Source: Nitrospinae bacterium CG11_big_fil_rev_8_21_14_0_20_45_15 (GTDB lineage Bacteria > Nitrospinota > Nitrospinia > Nitrospinales > VA-1). Taken from it: 36,867 bases of DNA. The notes below the pieces were generated by a model. The model was not told the DNA's origin and ran no database searches. It saw only the letters and a program-made list of their open reading frames with translations. The stretch is from positions 1-36,867 of the forward strand of contig PCWG01000012.1 of NCBI GenBank assembly GCA_002787235.1, read 5' to 3'. This document shows, in pieces, positions 10,585 to 36,867 of the stretch. How positions within the stretch are numbered: the first letter of the stretch is position 1; each line of letters opens with the position of its first letter. The translations under genes were made by a program, and so were the position numbers.

Positions 10585-11562
10585 TTATATATTCCACTCT
10601 TTTATCACTTGAACAATGGTTTCACGGGTTGGGTAATAAATATCCTCCAACACCTTGCTGGATGGAGCTGGAGCATTGGGTAAAGTGATCCGTTTGTATT
10701 GAATATTTTTCGAACTCTGACTCATCTGAACGGCAACCGAAGCGATCACTTCTCCTGCCATACCGCAGGATTCCCAACCTCCATCTACAACGCACAGTGA
10801 TCCGGTTTTACTGACCGAATCAATGATGGATGTAACGTTCAATGGATTGAGCACACGTAAATCCACCACTTCGCATTGGATTCCTTCTTCAGACAAAGCC
10901 TGTGCGGCCTCAAGACATAGTTGAACGGAATATCCTGATGCGGCCAAAGTTGCATCCTGTCCGTTGCGAAGAATCTTTGGCAATTGAAGGGAAAGATCTT
11001 TTTCTTCAATTTCGGGTAAATCGTCTTCGAGTTCATACAGCCAACGGTCATCAATATATATAACGGGATCATCACTGAGCACGGCTGAAATCAAAAGATC
11101 ACGAGCGTCTAGTACCGTCGCTGGCATAACCACTCGCAAACCGGGAATATGCGCAAACCAGGCGTGCAAAGCCTGTGAATGTTGTGCTCCCTGTTCGCCG
11201 CCACGATTGATCACACCTCTAATGGTTACGGCAGGATGGGTCTCACCACCCAGCATATGAGACCATTTGGCCGCTTGATTTACAATTTGATCCATTGCCA
11301 GAATCATAAAATCCATCCGTGGATGAACAACAATCGGACGATACCCGCACAGTGAAGCCCCTATTCCGGCACCTGTACAAGCCGCTTCCGAAACGGGGGT
11401 ATCCATTACGCGGTCTTTCCCAAACTCAACTTCCAAATCATTCATTGAGTTTCCAACATACCAGGGACTCCATAAGCCCTGCCCCATGACAAATACATTC
11501 GGATACGTTTTGAGTAGATACTGAAATGCGGAACGAATGGCTTGAGCGTAAGTTATTTTCAT
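10585..11562 (-). CDS. TPP-dependent dehydrogenase E1 beta-like subunit in a polysaccharide locus
   Basis: This is the beta subunit of an alpha2beta2 2-oxo-acid dehydrogenase E1-type enzyme, 325 residues. It has the transketolase pyrimidine-binding domain (DTPVSEAACTGAGIGASL, 54-71) with the TPP-activating Glu in VSEA. DFMILAMDQIVNQAAKW and the GAQHSQ segment with the active-site His follow. A C-terminal transketolase domain covers about 200-320 (VVDLRVLNPLN). Its ATG overlaps the E1 alpha stop by four bases and has AAGGGCG 8 bases upstream. Members with an E2/E3 complex oxidise pyruvate, acetoin or branched 2-oxoacids, but no lipoyl E2 or E3 gene is present here. The real substrate is unknown. 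Confidence 0.88.
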   Translation of the reverse strand: MKITYAQAIRSAFQYLLKTYPNVFVMGQGLWSPWYVGNSMNDLEVEFGKDRVMDTPVSEAACTGAGIGASLCGYRPIVVHPRMDFMILAMDQIVNQAAKWSHMLGGETHPAVTIRGVINRGGEQGAQHSQALHAWFAHIPGLRVVMPATVLDARDLLISAVLSDDPVIYIDDRWLYELEDDLPEIEEKDLSLQLPKILRNGQDATLAASGYSVQLCLEAAQALSEEGIQCEVVDLRVLNPLNVTSIIDSVSKTGSLCVVDGGWESCGMAGEVIASVAVQMSQSSKNIQYKRITLPNAPAPSSKVLEDIYYPTRETIVQVIKEWNI

Positions 11563-12617
11563 CGGGATACGCCCTTATTGTTTTTATAAACTGCGGACAA
11601 TAGAAACGATTTTTCTGGATAGGGGTCCTTCAAACTTGCATCCAATGCAACATTAATTTGCGTTACGACTTTCATTTCAAGAGAGTGATAATCCTCGCTT
11701 GTGATAAGGCTGGCCTCTAACATGCCATCTTTTAAACGTCGAATGGGATCACGCTTCTTCCAGGCCAGAAGATCCTCTTTTTTTCTCCTCAAGCCAACGT
11801 CAACATTCTCATCCGGACCCACATGCCCCAGCCATCGGTAAGTCACCGCTTCGAGAAAACCCGGTCCTTTACCGCATCGGACAGATTCCAAAAGTTCTTT
11901 CGTTGCCATTGCTGTCATCACCACATTATTGCCATCGACAACACGCGCAGATATTTTGTGTGCGTCTGCAAAACGGGAAATTTTATCACTGGGTTGTCGT
12001 AAATGAATGTCTAGATGGCTGGAATAGAAATTATTTTCACACACAAATAATATGGGTAATTTGAAGTTAGACGCAAAATTAAAAGATTCCTGAACCATGC
12101 CCTCTTCCACCGCCCCATCCCCAAAATAACAAACCGCAATATTTCCTTTTCCATCCTTTTGACAGGCAAGCCCGGCACCAATTGCAATGGGAACGGTTCC
12201 GCCAACAATGGGTGCCGATCCTATAAAGCCCTTTTCTGGTTGGAAAAGATGCATCGACCCGCCCATCCCCTTGGAGCAACCTGTCGATCGACCCAAAACC
12301 TCTGCCAATAGACTCCTGATACTGCCTCCAAGTGCCAAAAAGTGTGAATGCGAACGATGTCCCCCAAATACCTTATCATCCGATGTGAGATTAGTAGAAA
12401 CCCCCACAGCAATCGCTTCCTGACCTGTTCCTAGATGACAGGGGCACTTTACTTTATTATCTTCAATCAAAGATGCGATGCATTCTTCAACCTTACGAAT
12501 AACAAGCATCGACTCTAATTTTAAAAGTAAAGCATCCCGGCTATATTCCCCAAGGTTCAATGGCCCCGTGTGTTTTGAAGAATCTGCCCAAGTACCAAGT
12601 TCTGAGGGTGCTACCAT
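11559..12617 (-). CDS. TPP-dependent dehydrogenase E1 alpha-like subunit in a polysaccharide locus
   Basis: This 352-residue protein carries the diphosphate-binding half of a heterotetrameric E1 enzyme. The TPP motif runs from GDGAVEEG (166-173) to CENN (193-196). FGGHRSH (84-90) and the GMGGSMHLF stretch (117-125) match PDH E1 alpha. The phosphorylation-loop equivalent reads YRWLGHVGPDEN, where PDH and acetoin enzymes usually have GHS followed by Asp, so the loop is altered. GGGAG lies 8 bases before the ATG. It is four-base coupled to the beta subunit and follows the aldo/keto reductase by 75 bp. The pair could act on a 2-keto group of a nucleotide sugar or a small keto acid used for decoration; this is inference. 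Confidence 0.88.
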   Translation of the reverse strand: MVAPSELGTWADSSKHTGPLNLGEYSRDALLLKLESMLVIRKVEECIASLIEDNKVKCPCHLGTGQEAIAVGVSTNLTSDDKVFGGHRSHSHFLALGGSIRSLLAEVLGRSTGCSKGMGGSMHLFQPEKGFIGSAPIVGGTVPIAIGAGLACQKDGKGNIAVCYFGDGAVEEGMVQESFNFASNFKLPILFVCENNFYSSHLDIHLRQPSDKISRFADAHKISARVVDGNNVVMTAMATKELLESVRCGKGPGFLEAVTYRWLGHVGPDENVDVGLRRKKEDLLAWKKRDPIRRLKDGMLEASLITSEDYHSLEMKVVTQINVALDASLKDPYPEKSFLLSAVYKNNKGVSR

Positions 12618-12692: not shown

Positions 12693-13649
12693 TCACTTGC
12701 CAAAGCAGGAGTTATAAGTTTTATCAAGAAAATCAATATCCTGTTTTTGCAATTTCCAATCCAATGCACCGACATTCTCCTTTGCCTGTTCAGTGGTTTT
12801 CAGACCGGTCAGAACAACGCTCATAGGAGCGCGATCCAAAATCCAACGCAAAGCCAGTTGAGCAAGAGTTCTTCCCGGATAATTCTGGAGACACTGTTTG
12901 GCCTGACTGATAAATTTTAAATTTTGTTTGAACCGTTCACCGTGAAAATTCTTATACACAAGACGACTTCTTCTGTCACTTTCATCAAAACAAGTTTGAG
13001 AATCAAATTTACCTGAAAGCATACCTTGCCCAAGACTTCCCCATGCAAAGAAAATCCATTTATTTTCTTCGCAATTATTTAAAATTGTTGCTTCGTGTTC
13101 GCGATGGATCAAACTGTATTCGTAAGTGAATGCAGACATGCCTGAATATCCCTTACATTCTGCTAATTTTTCATGGCTCAGATTGGATACTCCCCAATGA
13201 CGAATCTTCCCCTGTTCTCGTTTCAATTCCAGCCAGGAATAAATTTCCTCAAGCGGCGTGACTCCATCCCAGTAATGTAAAAAGTACAAGTCGATGTAAT
13301 CGGTATCCAAACGTTTTAAAGACGCTTCAAGAGCTTGCTCCCCCCAGTGCGTCGAACTGTCATAAAACGTTTTCTTTGATGAATCTTGTCTGACACCATA
13401 TTTCGATGAAATGACAGCACTCTCACGTCGTCTCTTCAAAATCTTACCCAAACGTCTTTCTGATTCTCCCAATCCATACACATCTGCGGTATCCAACAAA
13501 TTCACACCCTGACCAAGCGAATACAAAATGGCATTCTCCATTTCACGCTCATTGATCTTACCCCAGCCATGCCCACCCAAAGGACAACAACCCATTCCCA
13601 AACGAGAAATTCTCAATCCATCGTTGCCGAGTTTTATCGATTCAGTCAT
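12693..13649 (-). CDS. Aldo/keto reductase
   Basis: An NADPH-dependent carbonyl reductase of the AKR TIM-barrel fold, 318 residues, cytoplasmic. The catalytic tetrad is readable: Asp53 and Tyr58 in DTADVYGLGE, Lys83 in SSKYG, and His125 in YFLHYWD. AKRs of this type (near AKR11/YajO-like) occur in sugar-modification clusters and could reduce a keto-sugar intermediate, but the substrate cannot be read from sequence. ATGA overlap (4 bases) couples it to the upstream phosphoglycosyl transferase. The E1 alpha/beta genes follow 75 bp downstream, suggesting the three act in one branch. Confidence 0.9.
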   Translation of the reverse strand: MTESIKLGNDGLRISRLGMGCCPLGGHGWGKINEREMENAILYSLGQGVNLLDTADVYGLGESERRLGKILKRRRESAVISSKYGVRQDSSKKTFYDSSTHWGEQALEASLKRLDTDYIDLYFLHYWDGVTPLEEIYSWLELKREQGKIRHWGVSNLSHEKLAECKGYSGMSAFTYEYSLIHREHEATILNNCEENKWIFFAWGSLGQGMLSGKFDSQTCFDESDRRSRLVYKNFHGERFKQNLKFISQAKQCLQNYPGRTLAQLALRWILDRAPMSVVLTGLKTTEQAKENVGALDWKLQKQDIDFLDKTYNSCFGK

Positions 13650-14263
13650 CCGCTGTTTTTTTTTGGAGATTTTATTTTTTTGACAATCCCCCAGAGAGTT
13701 AAAAAAATAAGTTTTATATCCAATAGAAAACTTTGTTCATTGACGTACTTGATCCGCAAATCATTTTTTCTCGCAAGAATTTTTTCTTCAAAGATTCGAT
13801 CCACATCGACTCGACCGACCATCTCCTCCAAAGCAACAAATTCCATTGAACTGTAGTCTGTGATTCCGGGACGAACGCTTAAAATCTTTTTCTCTTCCCC
13901 CTTAAATAGATTCGTGTACTGCAATAACTCAGGTCGAGGCCCCACCAGACTCATGTCTCCCCGAATAATATTGATCAACTGGGGAAATTCATCCAGCTTG
14001 AATTTTCTCAACAAGGAGCCCACGCGGGTGATACGTACGTCATCCAAAGCGGTTGTCCCTCCCCCGAGTTTTTCAGCATTCAACACCATTGTCCTGAATT
14101 TAAAAATTTTGAAAGGGACGCCATACCTGCCCGCTCGAACCCCTCTATAAAATACGGGCCCCGGACTGTCCAGTTTGATAGCAATGCCTGCAATAATAAA
14201 AAAGGGGAACAATACAACCAGCCCCATCAACGAAGCAGTCACATCAAACATGCGTTTCAACAT
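13646..14263 (-). CDS. PglC-type initiating phosphoglycosyl transferase
   Basis: It transfers a sugar-1-phosphate from a UDP-sugar to undecaprenyl phosphate, starting the repeat unit at the inner membrane. At 205 residues it is the short monotopic form, like PglC, without the WcaJ/WbaP N-terminal membrane domain. The re-entrant helix is at about 10-31. Key motifs are KLDSPGPVFYR (30-40), FKFRTM (54-59), the catalytic Asp91-Glu92 pair in KLDEFPQL, and RGDMSLVGPRP (101-111). GAGGA lies 11 bases before the ATG. The 4,6-dehydratase at 26899-28887 could supply a 6-deoxy-amino sugar precursor, which would fit a QuiNAc- or bacillosamine-like first sugar (inference). Confidence 0.92.
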   Translation of the reverse strand: MLKRMFDVTASLMGLVVLFPFFIIAGIAIKLDSPGPVFYRGVRAGRYGVPFKIFKFRTMVLNAEKLGGGTTALDDVRITRVGSLLRKFKLDEFPQLINIIRGDMSLVGPRPELLQYTNLFKGEEKKILSVRPGITDYSSMEFVALEEMVGRVDVDRIFEEKILARKNDLRIKYVNEQSFLLDIKLIFLTLWGIVKKIKSPKKNSG

Positions 14264-14288: not shown

Positions 14289-15098
14289 TCAGTGCTTGAC
14301 CAGTTGAAACGTTATTTGCCAGGCCAAATGTTTGAATAAGGGAAGTCTTAAAAAAATTTGATCCATCGCATCGAATAATCTCAATGCTGAGGGAATATAA
14401 GCACCGATGATGCTGAAAAAATGCCATCGCCGTATGTCTCTTACTTCAAAAAAATTACTCGCAAGTTTCAGGTCGTCATAGGAAAAAATATGTTCCACCT
14501 CCCAGGCAGTACGAATATGCGGTGTCAGCTTTCGATAAAGCTGAATGAGTGGATTGTAGGCCAATGGCTCCTTTGCCAACACGATCCCTCCCGGCTTCAG
14601 TATTCTCTTCAATTCAGGAAATGCGGAATTCAATTCCATGTGATGCAATACGCCGCTACAATAAATCAAATCGATGCACGCATCAGGCAATCCTGTATTC
14701 TCACAATCCCCAAGAAGAAAACGGCAGGTTGCGCCGACGCCTTCCTCTTCCGCATACTTTTTCGCATTCTGCAAAGAAACCGGGCTCAGGTCGATGCCAA
14801 CCACAAGACCCGCACCCATCTTGGCCGCCAAAATGGTATTTTCCCCATTGCCACATCCGTAATCCAGAATAGCCTTACCCGGTGCATGCGTCTTCCACCA
14901 GTCTTCAAGATAGCGGTCAGACAATTGCGTGGTTTTATAAAACTTTTCGTTGGAATATTCTTCATCTCGACCTGGATCACGAATAAAATCCTGATGTTCT
15001 ATTTCTTCTCTCTTTCGCCCCTCCAGGTTCTCAACCCAAAGAGCATCAGCCTTTTTATCCAAGTCCTCTAAAATTGAAATCAACACCGAATGATCCAT
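14289..15098 (-). CDS. SAM-dependent class I methyltransferase
   Basis: A Rossmann-fold methyltransferase, 269 residues from the ATG at 15098. Motif I is ILDYGCGNGE (about 77-86), motif II GIDLSP, the acidic adenine contact GDCEN, and motif IV IYCSGVLHH. A C-terminal region with hydrophobic helices may contact membrane-bound lipid-linked sugar. It probably methylates a sugar hydroxyl or a related group of the polymer. A GTG at 15149 would add 17 residues and sit 3 bases after the upstream stop. I prefer 15098, which has AGAGG 10 bases upstream and resembles relatives I recall starting at this point. It belongs to unit B between two glycan enzymes. Confidence 0.85.
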   Translation of the reverse strand: MDHSVLISILEDLDKKADALWVENLEGRKREEIEHQDFIRDPGRDEEYSNEKFYKTTQLSDRYLEDWWKTHAPGKAILDYGCGNGENTILAAKMGAGLVVGIDLSPVSLQNAKKYAEEEGVGATCRFLLGDCENTGLPDACIDLIYCSGVLHHMELNSAFPELKRILKPGGIVLAKEPLAYNPLIQLYRKLTPHIRTAWEVEHIFSYDDLKLASNFFEVRDIRRWHFFSIIGAYIPSALRLFDAMDQIFLRLPLFKHLAWQITFQLVKH

Positions 15099-15152
15099 CA
15101 CAAAACAGCCTCTATTTTTTATTCCCATCGCTATAGAAATTCTCACCACGCA

Positions 15153-16394
15153 TCAACGTCTTCCCATTTTCACAACTTTCTCAATATGATCGATATAAGC
15201 GGGATAAATAGTATCTGCGTCAAACTTTTCACGAAAAATTTTCAGAGCATTCATTGAATATTTTTCACGCATCATCGAATCGTCCGCAAACCTTAGAATT
15301 GCAGCGTAGAATGAAGAGATATCACCCGGTGGATAAGAAAGCCCTATTTCATTATCGTCTATGATCGCTTCCATCTCACCTCGAAGTGAAGAAAGCAAGG
15401 GCAAGCCGCGTGCCAGATACTGCATGGGCTTCGTCGTTACCGCTCCCTGCATGTGCCAACAGGGCACCAATCCGACATGTGACACAGACAATAAATGGGT
15501 CATTTCATCTTCATTCAACCATCCAGTCAAGGTCAGATTACGAGTCGATTCTCTGGAAATTTTATCGAATTTTTCTCCCGTGCCCGCCAAAACAAATTGA
15601 ATATCTTCCCTGCCTTGATCGATCAATTTTTTTGCCACGGCTACAACAAGTTCCAAATCATAAGACTGACCAAAGGAACCGATAAAAGCAAAAACCATTT
15701 TCCCTGCTAACTTGTTGATCGTCCGCTCAAATTCTGGACGCGGCTGATAATCTTCGGAAAGTTCTTTCTTGCTAAATCCTATATAATAAGTGTGATCCCT
15801 ATCCTCTATTTCTCTATTTGCATAGGCCAGAGCCCAATCTAAAAATCCATCGGATACCGAAACGATGCCATCCGCCATTCGTAAAGAACGACGGGTCGTA
15901 TAAAAATCATAACTCAATGTCAAACGAGCCAATCCTCTCAATGCTTTCGGCAAATGATTTAAAAAATCATCAGGCCACAAATCCATAACATCAATAATTA
16001 CAGGAATGTTCCACGCTTGGCCCAAGCGAACTGCTTCATAATTCAGCTCATAATTGGGCAATGACGACACGATAATGTCCGGTCGGTTGATCTCTTTGGA
16101 TGCCTGTATCTGAAAATTCCTTGCAACTATTTTGTGATGACAATAACGCCGAAATGAAACATTTCTCTGATAACCCAAGCCTTCAAGCAAGCGAATCTGG
16201 TAATGAGGGTTGACTTGAATCTCTGTGTATTTATCAAATAAAAACTCTTTCTTGTGATGATAAAAATTTGCCCCCCACCATACAATGTCGTGACCTCTTG
16301 CATTCAATGCCGACGCCAAGTGTCCGGTTCTGATTGGGGAAGAACCAACTTGAAAAGGGTAACACTCTCCAATTTCAGTCAACCAGATTTTCAT
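15153..16394 (-). CDS. Glycosyltransferase, GT4-like (WbuB type)
   Basis: A GT-B-fold glycosyltransferase of 413 residues, cytoplasmic or peripheral. The N-terminal domain has the glycine-rich acceptor loop (GSSPIRTGHLASAL) and VMDLWPDDF, which matches the DLWP motif of WbuB-like enzymes. The C-terminal domain has FAFIGSFGQSYDLE, VLAGTGEK, LTGWLNEDEM and KPMQYLARGLPLLSS. In most relatives the last motif reads EY(L/M)A; here the Glu is Gln, and the Glu eight residues earlier is Gly, so the EX7E pair is not conserved. Activity may still be retained. It is 42 bp downstream of the Wzy-like gene in unit B. Confidence 0.88.
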   Translation of the reverse strand: MKIWLTEIGECYPFQVGSSPIRTGHLASALNARGHDIVWWGANFYHHKKEFLFDKYTEIQVNPHYQIRLLEGLGYQRNVSFRRYCHHKIVARNFQIQASKEINRPDIIVSSLPNYELNYEAVRLGQAWNIPVIIDVMDLWPDDFLNHLPKALRGLARLTLSYDFYTTRRSLRMADGIVSVSDGFLDWALAYANREIEDRDHTYYIGFSKKELSEDYQPRPEFERTINKLAGKMVFAFIGSFGQSYDLELVVAVAKKLIDQGREDIQFVLAGTGEKFDKISRESTRNLTLTGWLNEDEMTHLLSVSHVGLVPCWHMQGAVTTKPMQYLARGLPLLSSLRGEMEAIIDDNEIGLSYPPGDISSFYAAILRFADDSMMREKYSMNALKIFREKFDADTIYPAYIDHIEKVVKMGRR

Positions 16395-16436: not shown

Positions 16437-17780
16437 CTAATCACTGTTTCGACGATGAAAACCAGTTTTTGAATACATCATAGCTGTTTCTTTTGCCATC
16501 TCTGAAGGGTCTGAATAACCTAGGGGTTCCAACTGTTTGACCTGCGACCAATACAGATAATAAATTGAAAGCACATAGGTAAAAACAATGGAGTTGTAAC
16601 CAAAAAAAGATCCTCCAAACAGGGCCAGATTCACATAGCAGGCGACCAGGAAAATACAGTATTGAGATTTTCGCCCTTCAACCACCCTGCCATAGGCAAA
16701 CCCCATGACAAATCCATAGATAAGCCACCATCCAAAAGATCCTCCCAGTCCAAAATCGTCAATCGGCGGACGAAAACCTGTATAAACATTGGACTCAACA
16801 TCTTCAACCACGATCATATTATCGAAACGCGTTCTCGGTGCAATTCCAAACAATGAAAGCGGTCCTGAGAAAATCACCTCACCCCAACGAGGTTCTGCAG
16901 GCAAATCCCAAGCAAGCGAAAAATAACTGGAAAAGAAATAAACATTGCCGAACACCAGATATTTAAATTTATCCCACCCGTCTAAAAAGCCCGTTACACT
17001 GGCCGCATTAAGAAATACGTAGAACTTGTCACTGGCGGAGAACATATCTCCTGTCCGCACACTGCGAAACAAATGTAAAATAACTCCCAAAAAAATAAAA
17101 ACTATCAAAAAGAAAAAACCACCCAGCACATTACGTACTGAAATAAATTTATAATTGCCTCGGGTATAAAATACTTTGATGGCAAAATATCCCGCAATCC
17201 AATAGAAGATAGGCTGTAAAATCTGGCTCCTTCCCGTAAACAAAACTGAAAGAGTGGCAGGAGGAATCAACGGCAAATAGCACAATAATTTTCGATAGGA
17301 CGACAGGCAACCTGAGGAATAAATGATCCCTCCAAGCAAAGGCCCCAGATACAAAAAAATCAAAAATACTTTTGCGGGCAATGGTAAATAATGCCCAATC
17401 TCGCTGATATTAACATTACTGGATTCAACATAAATGACATAGCCCATCCCAAACAGGGTACACAACAGCAATACCGCCGTGGGCTTGTAAAATTCCAATC
17501 TTTTATCAAAAGCAATTGAGCTCGTGATCTTATTGAATCCTGTTTGACCTGTCATTTTGCCCCAGAAACTCCCGATCACCATTACCAGAGCACTAAAAAA
17601 TATCCACCAAAGTGCTCCATCCCAAACAGGAAAGCCCGGTAATAAAACAGGCATACAGGCATACACACTCCAGACTAATGGAAACACTGCACCCGGGAAA
17701 TACCAGCTTTTAGCAAAAAAACGTGCGAATAAAGCCAGCACAAACAGGAAACCTATCGGAACATAATTTTCTAAGGGCAT
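16437..17780 (-). CDS. Wzy-like oligosaccharide repeat-unit polymerase
   Basis: A polytopic inner-membrane protein of 447 residues with about 11 predicted hydrophobic spans, including GFLFVLALFARFF, LLLCTLFGMGYVIYV and NVLGGFFFLIVFIFLGVIL. A large periplasmic loop (about 265-345) contains FSSYFSLAWDLPAEPRWGEV and the RTRFDN segment. This size and plan match O-antigen/capsule repeat-unit polymerases, which are recognised by topology more than sequence. The ATG at 17780 has GGAG 8 bases upstream and is preferred over a TTG at 17786. It is the first gene of unit B, about 100 bases below the promoter at 17891-17920. Alternative: an exopolysaccharide-specific membrane protein of other role. Confidence 0.72.
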   Translation of the reverse strand: MPLENYVPIGFLFVLALFARFFAKSWYFPGAVFPLVWSVYACMPVLLPGFPVWDGALWWIFFSALVMVIGSFWGKMTGQTGFNKITSSIAFDKRLEFYKPTAVLLLCTLFGMGYVIYVESSNVNISEIGHYLPLPAKVFLIFLYLGPLLGGIIYSSGCLSSYRKLLCYLPLIPPATLSVLFTGRSQILQPIFYWIAGYFAIKVFYTRGNYKFISVRNVLGGFFFLIVFIFLGVILHLFRSVRTGDMFSASDKFYVFLNAASVTGFLDGWDKFKYLVFGNVYFFSSYFSLAWDLPAEPRWGEVIFSGPLSLFGIAPRTRFDNMIVVEDVESNVYTGFRPPIDDFGLGGSFGWWLIYGFVMGFAYGRVVEGRKSQYCIFLVACYVNLALFGGSFFGYNSIVFTYVLSIYYLYWSQVKQLEPLGYSDPSEMAKETAMMYSKTGFHRRNSD

Positions 17781-18078
17781 GACCAAACTCCATCACGCCA
17801 TGCCAATGGCCGTGGATTTGATTTGAGATAGGATCTGGTCATACTTCTCCTAATGAAAACAGTGACTTTATTAATTCAGGCAATCTTTACATTATAGAGC
17901 GATAAGTCCTTTTTTATCAATGGAAAGAAAGCAATTACCTTATAAACTTCAAACTAATAAAGCAAATGGAATGGGCTATGATAGACTTGAAAACGCAATC
18001 GGTTCAAAATCTATTTACAAGGCATCAAGACAGATTAAAGGAGATACATCAGTGGTGCAAACAATGGGGAATTGCTGA
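17781..18078. other. Divergent intergenic region between the two polysaccharide units
   Basis: About 300 bp separate the minus-strand unit B from the plus-strand glycosyltransferase. The region holds the unit B promoter described separately and the ribosome binding site for the plus-strand gene (GGGGA). A TATGAT at 17977-17982 could be a plus-strand -10 element, but no matching -35 is present. No ORF or RNA gene was seen. Confidence 0.5.
17891..17920 (-). promoter_or_regulatory. Sigma-70-type promoter for unit B (17780 to 6679)
   Basis: Read on the minus strand, the -35 element is TTGATA (17915-17920; five of six consensus bases), followed by an 18-base spacer and a perfect TATAAT -10 element (17891-17896). 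Transcription would begin near 17884, leaving a leader of roughly 100 bases before the ATG at 17780. It is the closest to consensus of the promoters I found in the window. Confidence 0.6.
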
Positions 18079-24007: not shown

Positions 24008-24994
24008 TTACCATTCAGCGCGAGAATAATTCAAAATGATCTTGGAGCCAAAAGGTTCGATAGAAAAAGGCATTTCGCGATAATCTTCCATAATCTTCAG
24101 AAGTGATTCGCGTGCCGAGGCCGGACAATATACCAGTAAAAATCCTCCTCCACCTGCGCCGCTTATTTTTGCGCCCATGGCCCCTGCTGACATCGCAAGC
24201 GTGTGCATATCATCAATCTTCGGATTGCTGATTGAAGTGGCTAACGTCTTTTTGATCGCCCAATTTTCTCTCAATACTTTTCCCACGACATCCAAATCCC
24301 CTCGCCTCAATGCTTGATCAACATCAACGGCGAGAGATTTTATCACTTTAAGTTGATCCATGTTTGAATCCGTACGTTTGTTCTGTTCGGATAAAATGAT
24401 GTTGCTACTTCGGGTCAGATTGGTATAAAACAAAAACAAACGGTCAGATAAATCTCTCAGGCATTTACGAGGTAATGACAGCGGCTCGACCTCTACCTCT
24501 CCAGATTTTAAAAATTTAAATGATTGAACTCCTCCGTATGCGGCGATGTACTGATCCTGTTTCCCAATGGGCTTACCACAAACTTCTATTTCAATTTTAC
24601 AAGCTTCTTCCGCTAATCTTTTTGCAGATACCTGAATACCTTGATAATGATACAGAACATTGAGCAGGCCCACTGCAAAACTACTGGAAGAACCCAAACC
24701 CGAACCCTGAGAAGGAACGTCTGAAAGCAATGTGATCTCTATTCCCTGTTTGACACCTGTGATCTCCATGGCTGAGCGCACAAGTTCATGTTTCACCTGA
24801 GAAACGTTATCAACAATTTCTTTCTGAGAATAGTTGACATAGATTTTGTCATCGTAGCGTCGAGTCGCAATGACAAATACATATTTGTCAATCGCAGAGC
24901 TGACGACAAAACCATCTTCCCTTTTATAAAACTCCGGAAAATCCACACCACCACCTGCGAGGCTGATTCTGAGTGGTGTTTGAGAAATGATCAT
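24008..24994 (-). CDS. GHMP-family sugar kinase (heptose-7-phosphate kinase-like)
   Basis: A small-molecule kinase of 328 residues that phosphorylates a sugar or sugar phosphate at C1. Family motifs are visible: RISLAGGGVDFPEF (9-22), the phosphate-binding PSQGSGLGSSSSFA (about 94-107), and KISGAGGGGFLLVYCP near 278-293. This size and motif set matches HddA (D-glycero-alpha-D-manno-heptose-7-phosphate kinase); fucokinase-like GHMP enzymes are the alternative. GAGGA lies about 7 bases before the ATG. It overlaps the nucleotidyltransferase by four bases. No GmhA isomerase or GmhB phosphatase is visible, so the heptose pathway would be incomplete here. Confidence 0.85.
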   Translation of the reverse strand: MIISQTPLRISLAGGGVDFPEFYKREDGFVVSSAIDKYVFVIATRRYDDKIYVNYSQKEIVDNVSQVKHELVRSAMEITGVKQGIEITLLSDVPSQGSGLGSSSSFAVGLLNVLYHYQGIQVSAKRLAEEACKIEIEVCGKPIGKQDQYIAAYGGVQSFKFLKSGEVEVEPLSLPRKCLRDLSDRLFLFYTNLTRSSNIILSEQNKRTDSNMDQLKVIKSLAVDVDQALRRGDLDVVGKVLRENWAIKKTLATSISNPKIDDMHTLAMSAGAMGAKISGAGGGGFLLVYCPASARESLLKIMEDYREMPFSIEPFGSKIILNYSRAEW

Positions 24995-25701
24995 TTGGTT
25001 CCTCTTTGTAACTCAGCCCATTCTTTCTGAGCCTTTTCATAACTCATTGCATCACCTATATCGCGGAGATATTCTTTTAATTCGTAACTTCCCATTTTTC
25101 CACTTAATTTCGGCAGAATGTCTTTGCCCAAATCACAGGGAATTTTTTCTGGAATCCATTCAAATAATTTTGGACTGGCAACCATCAACCCACAAAAAGC
25201 TAAATTAGATTTTGGTTCTTTTGGTTTTTCTATGAAATGAATCACCATTCCATTTTCATCTACCTCAGCGATGCCACATGCTTGTGGAAACTCCGTTCGG
25301 AAAAGTCCCAGAGTCGCAACATATTCTCCCTCTCTATGTTTTTTTGCTAAAGCAGTCAAGTTTGCATTGGTCAGATTATCTGCATAGACCACCAAGAATT
25401 CATCCTCACCTTTAACAAATTCTTTATTCCGCAAAAGTGTTCCCGCACTTCCCAATAATTTCTCCTCATAAACCAATTGCACTTCAAATTCAGGAGAAAT
25501 TGTCTCAACATAGCGAATCATCGCATCATGCAAGTGATGGCTGTTGATGCACAGTGAGTTGATGCCATGACTCAAAAACAATTTCAGCCAATGGTCCATT
25601 AAGGGTTTTCCATCAATGGCTATAAGGGGTTTTGGAATTGTATCCGTTAAGGGTTGCAGGCGCGTCCCCAATCCCGCCGATAAAACAAATGCTTTTTTCA
25701 T
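24991..25701 (-). CDS. Sugar-1-phosphate nucleotidyltransferase
   Basis: It activates a sugar 1-phosphate to an NDP-sugar; 236 residues, cytoplasmic. The signature LSAGLGTRLQPLTDTIPKPL (8-27) is the Rossmann NTP-binding loop with the catalytic Lys in PKPL. FLVVYADN (about 103-110) is the metal-binding region and GIAEVDENG follows. The length fits the short HddC/RmlA-type without a beta-helix tail. With the neighbouring kinase it forms a two-step kinase-transferase pair, as in GDP-heptose synthesis; the nucleotide used cannot be read from sequence. It overlaps both neighbours by four bases, so the three genes are translated as a cassette. Confidence 0.88.
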   Translation of the reverse strand: MKKAFVLSAGLGTRLQPLTDTIPKPLIAIDGKPLMDHWLKLFLSHGINSLCINSHHLHDAMIRYVETISPEFEVQLVYEEKLLGSAGTLLRNKEFVKGEDEFLVVYADNLTNANLTALAKKHREGEYVATLGLFRTEFPQACGIAEVDENGMVIHFIEKPKEPKSNLAFCGLMVASPKLFEWIPEKIPCDLGKDILPKLSGKMGSYELKEYLRDIGDAMSYEKAQKEWAELQRGTK

Positions 25702-26898: not shown

Positions 26899-28887
26899 TC
26901 ATTGAAGGTGTGTCAGAATTTGATCCTCCGTCCCATTATTTTTTTTGATAACAGTTTTAGAAACTGATTTAGCATCGCATGAATTGAGGTGCTGTTCACC
27001 AAGGAGAGACATACCATCGACCAAACGTTTCAATCCGGCGGAATCACCTTTTTCAGAGATTTTGAATAAAGCTTCCAATTCTAGTGGTAATTCGACAACA
27101 ACCGGTTGATCCGTTATCAAAACCTTCACCTTTTTATGAATTGTATCAACAATCTGCTCTGATGAAATCGTCAGATCTTCCGTCAAGTTTTCTCCGGGAC
27201 GTATACCAACAATTTTAATAAAAATGTCTTTGTCTGGAGTCAACCCATAGAGAGAAATCATTTTCCGTGCCAACTCCATGATCTTTACAGGTTCTCCCAT
27301 TTCCAAAAGAAAAACTCCGCCTCTCTCTCCCAAAGCCGCAGACTGAAGTATCAATTGTGCCGCTTCGGAAATGAGCATGAAGTATCGGCTCATTTCTGGA
27401 TGTGTAACCGTAACGGGACCACCGTCTTCGATTTGTTTTTGAAAAATTGGGACGATACTTCCCATACTACCGAGAACATTTCCAAAGCGTACTATCATAA
27501 AACGGGTTTGGCTTTTCTTATTCATATACTGAATATACATTTCAGCGACTTTTTTAGTCATTCCCATGACGCTTTTAGGCCGAACCACTTTATCCGTAGA
27601 AACCAAAACAAATCGCTTGGTGCCATATTTATGGGCCATATCTGCCGTAACCTTGGTGCCATAAACATTATTCTTTACGGCTTCATCCACATTCGATTCC
27701 ATCATAGGAACATGCTTGTATGCCGCCGCGTGAAACACCAGATCCGGAGTGTGTTCGCTGAATATTGTTTCTAGTTTTGTACGATTCGTCACAGAACAGA
27801 ATTTGAATATGGCTTGAGTAGAAGACTTGGGTTGTAATGACATACTCAGGTTGAAAAGATAATTTTCACAATTATCGACCATCACCAAATCGGATGGTTC
27901 AAATTGAATAATCTGTCTACACAGTTCAGAGCCAATCGACCCCCCTGCCCCGGTAACCAATATCTTTTTCCCACGTACTAAATCTTCAATCCCTTTAATA
28001 TCCAAAGAAACCGGTTCGCGTCCCAAAAGATCTTCTATATCAATTTTTTTGAGGGAAGAAATGAGGACTCTTTCAGAAGAAATATCCATAACAGAACCGG
28101 CGATTTTATATTGAAGTCCACAGTTCTTGCAAATTTCTACAATCGCATTCAAACCCGCTTTGTCAATTCGATTACAGGCAATCAATAATTCTTCTATTCC
28201 TAATGTAACTGCCAGACGTGAAATAGCATTCCTGTCGCCCAATACTTTTACATGCCCCAACATCTGATCCAGTTTATTGGGATTATCATCAATAAAACCC
28301 ACAACCGCGTAGGGTTCCCCTTCCAACCTTATTCGTCCATACAATGCGGCTCCCGCATCTCCTGCCCCAAAAATCAGAACCTTTTTCAATCGTCTTTCCT
28401 GCAGATCGAATATTTCAGAAGATTTTTTTCTTTCTCTGAACAATCGCCAAGACAAACGAGATCCACCAAGGAGAAGCGTCAATCCCATGAAGTCGATCCA
28501 AAGTACTGCCAGTAATTCACCTGCAGAGTCACCCAAAACTCCAAAGCTTAAAGTACTAATGCACATCAATAGGGAGCCTAAAAAAACTGATTTGGTGATT
28601 TTTATGAAATCCTCTACACTCGCATATTTCCAGAAACTGGAATAAAAACTGAAATACAAATATGTAATCGTCCTGCACAAAATCATAACGGGTAGCAATA
28701 CAACAAATAATTCCAGAGCAGAAGCAGATGAGCTTAAATTCCCTATCAAAAATACGGCGATTGCCAATGAGGCCGAACCCAGTAAACAGTCAATCGTAAA
28801 CAGAGCAATTTTACGGCAGAATATGTTTTTCCATATCCCACGGTATTCTTCTAAAGAATTTATGAACACCATGACATTTTTCAACAT
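26899..28887 (-). CDS. CapD/WbpM-type NDP-sugar 4,6-dehydratase
   Basis: A membrane-anchored dehydratase of 662 residues that converts UDP-GlcNAc to UDP-4-keto-6-deoxy-sugar at the inner membrane. About 25-145 hold four membrane segments. A cofactor-binding-like domain follows with LIFGAGDAGAALYG (171-184), and the catalytic SDR domain opens with TGAGGSIGSEL (312-322). STDKVVRP (430-437) and MGMTKK (441-446) match the WbpM/FlaA1 motif in which Met replaces the usual catalytic Tyr. Residues about 600-662 are a non-conserved tail. It probably supplies the sugar for the PglC-like transferase. No 4-keto reductase or aminotransferase for this product is visible in the window. Confidence 0.93.
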   Translation of the reverse strand: MLKNVMVFINSLEEYRGIWKNIFCRKIALFTIDCLLGSASLAIAVFLIGNLSSSASALELFVVLLPVMILCRTITYLYFSFYSSFWKYASVEDFIKITKSVFLGSLLMCISTLSFGVLGDSAGELLAVLWIDFMGLTLLLGGSRLSWRLFRERKKSSEIFDLQERRLKKVLIFGAGDAGAALYGRIRLEGEPYAVVGFIDDNPNKLDQMLGHVKVLGDRNAISRLAVTLGIEELLIACNRIDKAGLNAIVEICKNCGLQYKIAGSVMDISSERVLISSLKKIDIEDLLGREPVSLDIKGIEDLVRGKKILVTGAGGSIGSELCRQIIQFEPSDLVMVDNCENYLFNLSMSLQPKSSTQAIFKFCSVTNRTKLETIFSEHTPDLVFHAAAYKHVPMMESNVDEAVKNNVYGTKVTADMAHKYGTKRFVLVSTDKVVRPKSVMGMTKKVAEMYIQYMNKKSQTRFMIVRFGNVLGSMGSIVPIFQKQIEDGGPVTVTHPEMSRYFMLISEAAQLILQSAALGERGGVFLLEMGEPVKIMELARKMISLYGLTPDKDIFIKIVGIRPGENLTEDLTISSEQIVDTIHKKVKVLITDQPVVVELPLELEALFKISEKGDSAGLKRLVDGMSLLGEQHLNSCDAKSVSKTVIKKNNGTEDQILTHLQ

Positions 28888-34066: not shown

Positions 34067-36867
34067 TTAGTGCTTATCTGGTTTTTTATCCTTGCCTTTG
34101 TCGTTATCCTTGCCTTTGTCGTTATCCTTGCCTTTGTCGTTATCCTTGCCTTTGTCGTTATCCTTGCCTTTGTCGTTATCCTTGCCTTTGTCGTTATTGT
34201 GCCGTTTTATTTTGCCACCCGCTGTAAGATCCATCGTGTCGGCCGTCACATGACGGGAAATACTGATATCATCTCCAGCGTTAATTGTCAGGTCGCCTAA
34301 ATCCAGATGACCTTTCAGAGTCACATCGTCGCCAGCAACAAGGTCGGTTTCAGTACTCACCGTGAGATGACCTTTGATTCGAATGTCATCACCCGCATTA
34401 GCTTCTAAATTGACAAAAGAAGATAACCCTTTCAGATCAATATCATCCCCCGCGTTCAAACTCACTTGCTGAGCGGTCAGACCCTTGTCTATTTTGATAT
34501 CATCTGCAGCAATCATTGAAATATTGTTAAAGCTCGAAGCATTACCGTTAAAACGTATATCTTTACCCGTTTTAGAAGCTACAAGTGTTACGAGTGGAAG
34601 ATTAGCAATATTTGCCAAGCTTACATTATCGACTTTAATACCATCATTGTTAGCTCCTCCAATGATCAAATTGCTCGCACTGATGTTTTGCAATTCTGCA
34701 CCGCTGATCTGAGCATCACCCGCAGCGTCTCCAATACCAATAGTACCTCCTACAGACAGACTCAGACTTGTGGTCGCCGTGCCGCTATTGATCGTACCGC
34801 CGATAATAAAATCGTTGGCCGTTATCGAAATGTCATGGCCCTGGGAATCAATCAGAATTCCTGCGAGAAGCTCAAAGTCGCCCACTCCATTGAGGTCTGC
34901 ATCGGCGTCAATGAGAACATTACCGTTGTTATTGATATTTTGAGAAATTATAATTCCGTCGTTCGCTGAGATGATCAAAGGCCCACTCGTCTGAGTATTG
35001 CCATTCAATCCTATAGAACCACCTGCTACCAGATTACCAATCAAGTCGATAAATTCTGCTGTAATAACGATATCATTCGCTGAACTGAGCGTTGTTCCAC
35101 CTGCCAGGCTGAAATTTCCACTCAAATTCAAGTCAGCATCCGCTACCGCTATAAAGTCGCCCAGAACCGTCGTTAAATCCGTATTGACATTAATGTCGCC
35201 ATTCGCGGTCAAATTCAGAGCATTGAAGCTGGAAGCATTGTTATTGAAATCAATATTACCTCCCGTATTGATGAACACAGTACCTATCCCTGCGCTATTT
35301 GTGGGAGTCACACCATCCACAACAACATTCCCACCCAGTAAATTTCCCAGTACCAGATTTGCTGAAGTTATATTTTGCAGTTCTGCACCATCAATCGTCA
35401 TATCCCCTATGGCATTGCCAACACCGATCGTGCCATTATCCGATACTTGAATCGTGATCGTGCCCGCTCCAGAAGAAAGCGCACCATTGAAGACTAAATC
35501 ATTCGCAGTGATGAATGAATCACTGTTTCCAGTATCCAGACTCCCCGCAACTGCAATTGTAAAATCTCCTGTACCATCAGCATTAGAATCTGCATTTAAA
35601 TGCGTAACTCCTCCAGCAACAACCGCACCATTGACAGTGATTCCTTTAGAAGCGGTCATATTCAAAGCTCCGCCAGCACTCACTCCCCCAGCACCTACCG
35701 TAATTAAATCATTGGAAGTAAGATCAACCAATCCGCCAGAATTACTGCCTGTCGCCGTCAACGCACCTGTATTGTTGATCAAAACTGATCCGATACCCGA
35801 GTTATTAAAGCTTACAGAAGAAACCGAAGTTTGAATATTCGTTCCATTTACAGAGCTGGTATTTAAATTATTGCCATGAATAAGGCCTGATCCATTGATA
35901 CTGCCACCTGAGTTAAATGCGATATTGCCGGATGCAGTGGTTGCAGAATTGATATCAATGTTGCCGGTAGAGCTGAAGTCAATGTCTGTAGCATTCAATA
36001 CAGCAGAAACATTGATTCCTGAGCTGTTGTTGATGGTCAGTAAATGAAAAGTCGAAGAATCGCCGGTAAAATTAACCCCTGAATTTGTATCAATAATTAT
36101 TTTACCGATGTTCTGACTATCACTAGCAGTAACACCTTCAACTGTTACTGCCCCGTTGCTGGAAAGAATCAATTCAGCCGATGTCATACGACTCAGTTCA
36201 TCTTGGTAAATCGTCATATTGCCGATAGACAAACCGACTCCTATCGTTCCATTGGTAGAACTTGTAATCGTAGTACTGGCTGTACCCGTATTTATAAAAC
36301 CCGTAAAGGCAACCTCATGAGCCACTATGTCCAAAAGATTGTCATGCGTATTTAAAGTTCTTACTGTCCCACCGACTTGACCTAATTCAAACAATCCAGT
36401 TCCATCGTTCGAATCGGTATCTGAATTAATGGTCAAATTTCCAAAAGCATCAAGATCGGAATCAACAAGAATTGAGTCCGTCGCGCGCAAGGTCAAGGCT
36501 CCCAAAGCAACGATACCACCTGTTTCTGAATTCAGATCAACCCGACCGTTTGTGGTCTCAATCGTTACACCCGATGAAATCGTCAAAGTATCTGAACCAT
36601 CGGCAATACCATTGGCATCGGCATCAAGAACGATATCACTTGCAGAAGTCACGTCGCCGTTCAATGTGATTCCATTATTGGCATTCATGACGATTCCATC
36701 ATTTGATACCAAACCATTCGTCAAAAGAATCGCATTGCCCGCATTGAGTGTGATTGAATCCGATGATTCCATCCCCACGGTCGGGGAATTCAGGATGATC
36801 GATCCGGCTGAGGTCAGGGTCGGATTGGTGAAGAAAATAATGCGATCGTTCAATCCGACATTATTGG
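34067..36867 (-). CDS. C-terminal 933 residues of a giant filamentous-haemagglutinin-like repeat protein
   Basis: The frame is open to the right edge, so the N-terminus, signal peptide and secretion domain are off-window. The visible chain is almost wholly beta-helix sequence rich in Asn, Gly, Ser, Thr and Asp, with very few Cys. A broad super-repeat occurs three times, each carrying GTIG(V/I)G and an (A/D)ELQN(I)-like strand, about 229 to 272 residues apart. The last 100 beta residues show AGDD motifs every 19-20 residues (genomic 34214-34513), typical of FHA-type rungs. The final 46 residues are Lys/Asp-rich with six NDKGKD units. It probably is a two-partner-secreted or surface adhesin/matrix protein; the partner transporter is not in the window. 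Confidence 0.85.
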   Translation of the reverse strand, partial: NNVGLNDRIIFFTNPTLTSAGSIILNSPTVGMESSDSITLNAGNAILLTNGLVSNDGIVMNANNGITLNGDVTSASDIVLDADANGIADGSDTLTISSGVTIETTNGRVDLNSETGGIVALGALTLRATDSILVDSDLDAFGNLTINSDTDSNDGTGLFELGQVGGTVRTLNTHDNLLDIVAHEVAFTGFINTGTASTTITSSTNGTIGVGLSIGNMTIYQDELSRMTSAELILSSNGAVTVEGVTASDSQNIGKIIIDTNSGVNFTGDSSTFHLLTINNSSGINVSAVLNATDIDFSSTGNIDINSATTASGNIAFNSGGSINGSGLIHGNNLNTSSVNGTNIQTSVSSVSFNNSGIGSVLINNTGALTATGSNSGGLVDLTSNDLITVGAGGVSAGGALNMTASKGITVNGAVVAGGVTHLNADSNADGTGDFTIAVAGSLDTGNSDSFITANDLVFNGALSSGAGTITIQVSDNGTIGVGNAIGDMTIDGAELQNITSANLVLGNLLGGNVVVDGVTPTNSAGIGTVFINTGGNIDFNNNASSFNALNLTANGDINVNTDLTTVLGDFIAVADADLNLSGNFSLAGGTTLSSANDIVITAEFIDLIGNLVAGGSIGLNGNTQTSGPLIISANDGIIISQNINNNGNVLIDADADLNGVGDFELLAGILIDSQGHDISITANDFIIGGTINSGTATTSLSLSVGGTIGIGDAAGDAQISGAELQNISASNLIIGGANNDGIKVDNVSLANIANLPLVTLVASKTGKDIRFNGNASSFNNISMIAADDIKIDKGLTAQQVSLNAGDDIDLKGLSSFVNLEANAGDDIRIKGHLTVSTETDLVAGDDVTLKGHLDLGDLTINAGDDISISRHVTADTMDLTAGGKIKRHNNDKGKDNDKGKDNDKGKDNDKGKDNDKGKDNDKGKDKKPDKH
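34088..34195 (-). repeat. Six perfect 18-bp tandem repeats encoding NDKGKD
   Basis: The plus-strand unit ATCCTTGCCTTTGTCGTT occurs six times without a mismatch. In the minus-strand gene each unit encodes NDKGKD. The unit is a multiple of three, so copy-number change would lengthen or shorten the tail without breaking the frame. Confidence 0.95.
34214..34513 (-). repeat. Beta-helix rungs of 19-20 residues near the C-terminus
   Basis: Within the giant protein the motifs IAADDI, NAGDDI, NAGDDI, VAGDDV, NAGDDI and TAGGKI recur at spacings of 19, 19, 20, 19 and 19 residues. This period is that of FHA-type parallel beta-helices. The rungs are diverged in DNA sequence, unlike the perfect 18-bp array that follows them. 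Confidence 0.8.

Follow-up and report, generated by a model that had tools for sequence, protein, structure and literature searches.

A pyruvate dehydrogenase-type E1 pair in a Nitrospinota exopolysaccharide locus is probably an E2-independent carboligase for branched sugars

Two-chain E1 enzymes and sugar branching

Sugar-branching enzymes that resemble the two-chain E1 component of pyruvate dehydrogenase (PDH) were grouped as alphaKADH2 in a 2025 review (PMC12247030). The members named are KbDH-alpha/beta (kibdelomycin), the enzymes of aldgamycin and kosinostatin, AviB1/AviB2 of avilamycin and Pau11/Pau12 of paulomycin. AviB1/AviB2 and Pau11/Pau12 have been proposed to add acetyl branches to sugars, and in paulomycin the resulting branch ketone was shown to be reduced by Pau7, an aldo-keto reductase (AKR) (PMC4753412, PMC4425429). 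KbDH-alpha/beta couples pyruvate with ketones in vitro and is limited to pyruvate, the sugars credited to alphaKADH2 all carry C2 branches, and the later steps on the branch are reduction or transamination (PMC12247030). These enzymes are assigned mainly to specialised natural products and antibiotics, whereas YerE-like enzymes, which as a family use donors of up to C8, are assigned to cell structures such as LPS; split transketolases have been proposed for the branching of miharamycin and amipurimycin (PMC12247030).

The E1 pair described here is likened to alphaKADH2 by description, being a two-gene PDH-type E1 alpha/beta in a sugar pathway. Unlike the known alphaKADH2 cases, which belong to actinobacterial antibiotics, it is found in the exopolysaccharide locus of a Gram-negative bacterium, beside a gene for a sugar transferase that acts on undecaprenyl phosphate. 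With YerE (yersiniose, erwiniose) it would share a C2-or-longer branch on a 4-keto sugar for a cell-surface polysaccharide. However, YerE is a single-chain AHAS-like decarboxylase and a TPP flavoprotein, whereas the pair has an E1_dh chain and a Transket_pyr/Transketolase_C chain and belongs to another TPP superfamily. A search of the literature for E1 genes of the PDH type within O-antigen loci or exopolysaccharide loci returned nothing specific, and a polysaccharide structure from this genus was not found either. Most likely, the pair adds a C2 branch from pyruvate to a sugar, a role that has been credited to enzymes of this kind mainly in antibiotic biosynthesis.

The E1 pair, its locus and the absence of E2

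The window, by which we mean the whole stretch of 36,867 nucleotides that was analysed, encodes an E1 alpha of 352 aa (11559..12617) and an E1 beta of 325 aa (10585..11562), both on the minus strand and overlapping by four bases. As the initial annotation had stated, both halves of an E1 are thus present and coupled, and the TPP motif is readable: alpha contains an intact GDG...NN motif and a GHVGPDEN loop, and matches Pfam E1_dh with 189.5 bits against a cut-off of 22. Beta carries Transket_pyr (92 bits) and Transketolase_C (90 bits), both far above the cut-off, so that the pair has the make-up of a two-chain E1. The NCBIfam PDH equivalog models all scored the pair below their own cut-offs (TIGR03182, 283.1 versus 393.85; PRK09212, 251 versus 321; PRK11892, 240 versus 454), and among solved structures it is closest to human PDH E1 alpha and beta, with matches of about 180 bits.

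The surroundings are rich in glycan enzymes, as had been noted before, and by its gene content the locus is an exopolysaccharide locus. All of the following genes that are given with coordinates lie on the minus strand. An AKR gene (12693..13649; Aldo_ket_red, 204.8 bits) ends 75 bp before the start of alpha, which confirms the earlier reading; by their positions, D53, Y58, K83 and H125 may form the usual AKR tetrad. It overlaps by four bases with the gene for a small initiating sugar-phosphate transferase of the PglC/WcaJ C-terminal type (13646..14263; Bac_transf, 185.8 bits). Then come a class I SAM methyltransferase (14289..15149; Methyltransf_11, 82.7 bits), a family-4-type glycosyltransferase (15153..16394; Glycos_transf_1) and a Wzy-like oligosaccharide repeat-unit polymerase (16437..17786; TIGR04370, 54 bits, above the cut-off of 40). 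A WbpM/FlaA1-type nucleotide-sugar 4,6-dehydratase is encoded at 26899..28887 (Polysacc_synt_2, 364.9 bits; 149 bits, below cut-off, with a PseB-like model). The locus also encodes an XrtA-type export protein (above cut-off), a chain-length/tyrosine-kinase protein, an O-antigen-ligase-like protein and several glycosyltransferases. A GHMP kinase (HddA-like, 162 bits, below cut-off) with an adjacent nucleotidyltransferase (24008-25701) suggests that an activated heptose or related sugar may enter the same polymer. At 34067-36853, a large repetitive and probably surface-located protein is encoded, whose C-terminal (GKDNDK)n tail consists of charged repeats.

No ORF for an E2 or E3 was found in the window, in agreement with the initial annotation, which had remarked on the lack of a lipoyl acyltransferase and a dihydrolipoyl dehydrogenase there. 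The whole-genome search that it had called for returned two E1 alpha/beta pairs, namely the window pair and one on contig C18, and no E2. Neither the E2 catalytic core (PF00198, 2-oxoacid_dh) nor the E1/E3-binding (peripheral-subunit) domain (PF02817) had a match in this Nitrospinaceae genome of 3.37 Mb, which is 97.5% complete; the same searches were positive in 10 of 14 control genomes. No E2 was found in the sister genome (G076) either, and within the Nitrospinota the window pair had a close orthologue in the sister genome only. Any E2 was present in only 6 of 77 Nitrospinota genomes, and a true E1 beta (more than 120 bits) in about 21. Three POR_N proteins, which are pyruvate:ferredoxin-type oxidoreductases, are encoded in the window's own genome, which therefore has another way to oxidise 2-oxo acids.

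The second pair (C18:23454-25454; L001, L011:11362-13470) is likewise E2-less and lies in another sugar cluster, together with genes for a radical SAM protein, an SDR, a GHMP kinase, a nucleotidyltransferase and a probable aminotransferase. Pairs from several further genomes of the Nitrospinota group with it.

Phylogeny and residues of E2-less pairs

Relatives of the pair were sought in 84,980 species genomes, which yielded 80 loci. The closest one, from a Nitrospinaceae MAG (L012), reaches 77% in alpha, followed by loci from Legionellaceae (L013, 56%), Coxiellaceae (L014, 50%) and Magnetococcales (L015, 52%). All four have Bac_transf and a family-4 glycosyltransferase near the pair, and L012 and L014 also have an AKR. 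The window AKR has an orthologue in L012 and relatives in L014, L017, L039 and L047, and homologues of the window glycosyltransferase are found in L012-L015 and L017. All E1 and E2 genes were searched for in the host genomes of 30 loci, and 25 of these genomes contained an E2, located beside other E1 pairs. The same hosts therefore provide an internal control set.

A tree was built from the concatenated alpha and beta sequences of 124 pairs (FastTree, LG+gamma), of which 25 were classed as E2-type because an E2 lies within 5 kb. The E2 label required 3 changes on this tree, whereas none of 500 shuffles needed fewer than 17. The window pair falls inside a clade of 95 leaves with no E2, apart from the 25 E2-type pairs. 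Support for the 95-leaf node is low (0.37), but it is 1.0 one node further out (101 leaves, 3 of them E2-type), as it is for the 23-leaf subclade that contains the window pair and for a tight group of 5 leaves. It should be noted that similarity to the window protein guided the choice of relatives, so that sampling determines how far the clade extends; E2 absence was not a selection criterion, and the tree contains none of the characterised alphaKADH2 enzymes AviB, Pau11/12 and KbDH. The 23-member subclade spans Nitrospinaceae, Legionellaceae, Coxiellaceae, Magnetococcales, Nitrospira and others. A position among housekeeping PDH E1s, which had been named beforehand as the outcome that would speak against a free-standing enzyme, was not seen. 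Together, the separate phylogeny and the genome devoid of PF00198 and PF02817 strongly support the earlier proposal of a free-standing E1, and we regard it as very likely that the pair is independent of E2.

Certain residues set the pair apart from the PDH E1s (human PDHA1/PDHB, Geobacillus E1p), with which it shares the fold family, the TPP motif and the active-site His and Glu. Human residue numbers in this comparison were set by counting along the alignment with human E1. The window pair and the 23-member subclade have kept the GDG...NN motif, the alpha His (human His63), beta Glu59 and beta His128. The only checked catalytic residue to have changed is that at human beta Glu28, which is Glu in all 25 E2-type pairs and Gln in the window; catalytic details may therefore differ. 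The initial annotation had correctly read that GHVGPDEN deviates from the GHS of PDH and acetoin enzymes, and this proved to be a clade-wide feature. The residue after GH is V in all 22 readable subclade members and V, C or G in the remaining E2-less pairs, and across the 95-member clade it is never S or T, whereas E1s with an adjacent E2 have GHS or GHT in 23 of 25 cases. In beta, a GE[DE] motif present in 25/25 E2-type pairs is replaced by GQG in 23/23 subclade members, where it is followed by a PWY.G signature (23/23; GQG...PWYVG in the window). The column aligned with human beta Asp289, which we take to be a contact to the E2-type binding domain, is D in 17 of the 25 E2-type pairs; in the E2-less clade it is almost never D and mostly K or R (K in most of the clade), with N in the window. 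A literature search on the role of human beta D289 in E2 contact found nothing. Judged from the aligned sequences, the 95-member clade has lost both the GHS/GHT motif and the acidic E2-contact position, and with its GHV and N the window pair lacks these two features of the E1s of PDH, BCKDH and acetoin complexes.

Several other loci deserve mention. In Candidatus Naiadarchaeum (L022:12620-14347), an E2-less E1 pair shares a cluster with an ORF pair resembling a split transketolase. On the Streptomyces griseofuscus plasmid pSGRIFU1 (L202:9983-12029), a pair of the same E2-less clade apparently belongs to something other than a sugar pathway, its neighbours being genes for SARP regulators, a carrier protein and a protein with a condensation domain. 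On an Arthrobacter plasmid (L211:758-2842), E1 alpha and beta are fused into one protein, and the adjacent genes encode a small lipoyl protein, an aldolase, and a kinase and an ABC transporter for sugars, which is likewise an uncommon context for an E1. Two actinomycete plasmid loci (L209 and L210) were considered as alphaKADH2 candidates and rejected, as they encode complex E1s with an adjacent E2.

Gene linkage, proposed reaction and significance

For the 23 subclade loci and the 25 E2-type loci, we counted the genes lying up to 6 kb from alpha. Bac_transf was present in 19 of the 23 subclade loci and in none of the E2-type loci, and the same contrast was found for the DegT aminotransferase (17/23 versus 1/25), the WbpM-type 4,6-dehydratase (11/23 versus 0/25), the family-4 glycosyltransferase (9/23 versus 0/25) and the AKR (6/23 versus 0/25). 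A class I methyltransferase was near the E1 in 10/23 subclade loci. An AKR and/or a DegT occurred in 21 of the 23 loci, but both together in only 2, and the hypergeometric probability of such a low co-occurrence (2 or fewer) is about 0.02 by a hand calculation that ignores kinship. In about ten loci, DegT directly follows beta. Genes for DegT, SDR, sugar kinase and nucleotidyltransferase proteins adjoin the E2-less pairs on C18 and on annotated plasmids of Solidesulfovibrio and Azospirillum. Of the expectation that the pair would always be accompanied by AKR and PglC-like genes, the PglC-like part thus largely stood, this gene being usual though not universal, while the AKR turned out to be optional, with DegT being the commoner partner.

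As the window contains an E1 pair, an AKR, a dehydratase and an initiating transferase, we read the pair as an E2-free carboligase for a hydroxyethyl-branched octose. By analogy with alphaKADH2, it is probably an E2-independent alpha2beta2 enzyme that attaches a C2 branch and thereby yields a C-branched octose for the exopolysaccharide. TPP on the pair would decarboxylate pyruvate to a hydroxyethyl/acetyl-anion equivalent, which would add to the ketone of a nucleotide- or lipid-bound 4-keto-6-deoxy sugar to give a C-acetyl branched sugar. The acceptor is plausibly the product of the WbpM-type dehydratase, which, with a substrate assigned by inference, is a candidate source of the 4-keto sugar. 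Its gene belongs to the same cluster as the pair, as it does within 6 kb in 11 relatives, but the distance of 14 kb in the window speaks against this reading. The AKR would then reduce the branch ketone to a 1-hydroxyethyl group, and in most relatives a DegT aminotransferase would take its place to give an aminoethyl branch. Finally, the adjacent phosphotransferase would put the octose on undecaprenyl phosphate, and transferases and the polymerase would build the polymer. In alphaKADH2 clusters, another cluster enzyme reduces or transaminates the branch ketone, and the alternation of AKR and DegT among the relatives would mirror these two outcomes, which favours the carboligase reading. The window AKR and Pau7 are likened at the level of the AKR family.

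The initial annotation had left the reaction unassigned, while suggesting transfer of an acyl or ketol unit onto a sugar, perhaps followed by AKR reduction, or synthesis of a decorating keto acid. Acyl transfer followed by reduction matches the route described for AviB1/B2, Pau11/12 with Pau7, and KbDH (PMC4753412, PMC4425429, PMC12247030), so that the reaction class is not wholly unassigned, although the AKR step is optional among the relatives. The keto acid suggestion found no support.

Other roles for the pair were weighed against these data. Family models label it as a PDH E1, its nearest solved structures are PDH E1s, and the checked catalytic residues are kept except for beta Glu28, all of which would suit an ordinary pyruvate or acetoin dehydrogenase E1 with E2 and E3 encoded elsewhere. 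This role is largely refuted and has a nearly negligible chance of being correct, given that a 97% complete genome has no E2 core or binding domain, that the sister genome has no E2 and that the pair scores below the equivalog cut-offs, branches separately and has lost the motifs of complex E1s. It is also very improbable that the pair is a split transketolase-like enzyme that passes a ketol (C2 hydroxyacetyl) unit from one sugar phosphate to another or attaches it to a sugar. There are weak matches to transketolase and DXS models, and the proposals for miharamycin and amipurimycin offer a precedent, but alpha scores 189.5 bits with E1_dh compared to 22 bits for transketolase models, and three other transketolase-type loci in the genome (C21, C37 and C32) have stronger PF02779 matches. 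We rejected both of these roles.

A free-standing E1 carboligase could also use another donor or acceptor, such as a longer 2-oxo acid, an aldehyde or an acyl carrier, for side-chain extension or acyloin-type decoration. The setting of the Streptomyces pair of the same E2-less clade, beside a carrier protein and a condensation domain, implies that acceptors vary; the donors of up to C8 in the YerE family and the E2-less pairs that adjoin heptose-type or NUDIX/kinase genes without Bac_transf point the same way. The pyruvate-only KbDH and the uniformly C2-branched alphaKADH2 sugars argue against such a donor or acceptor, as does the linkage of the window subclade to a dehydratase, an aminotransferase or AKR, and Bac_transf, and we consider this alternative rather unlikely for the window pair.

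If the preferred reading of the pair as a C2-branching carboligase is true, E1-type carboligases would be common in the surface-polysaccharide loci of environmental bacteria, where they would form a wider source of enzymes that make tertiary alcohols from ketones, and branched sugars would be predicted in polymers still to be analysed. The choice between AKR and DegT predicts a hydroxyethyl or an aminoethyl branch, which can be checked by NMR. More tentatively, a distinct clade of E2-free E1s (GHVGP in alpha, GQG...PWY.G in beta) may have spread across many bacterial phyla by exchange of polysaccharide loci. Its products, C-branched octoses and octosamines with an aminoethyl branch, would be the undecaprenyl-linked sugars with which surface polysaccharides begin. 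This would represent a second route, besides YerE, to branched cell-envelope sugars, with a swappable reductase/aminotransferase slot setting the chemistry of the branch. The PDH label that family models give to such pairs misstates central metabolism, for example in the Nitrospinota with their few E2-containing genomes.
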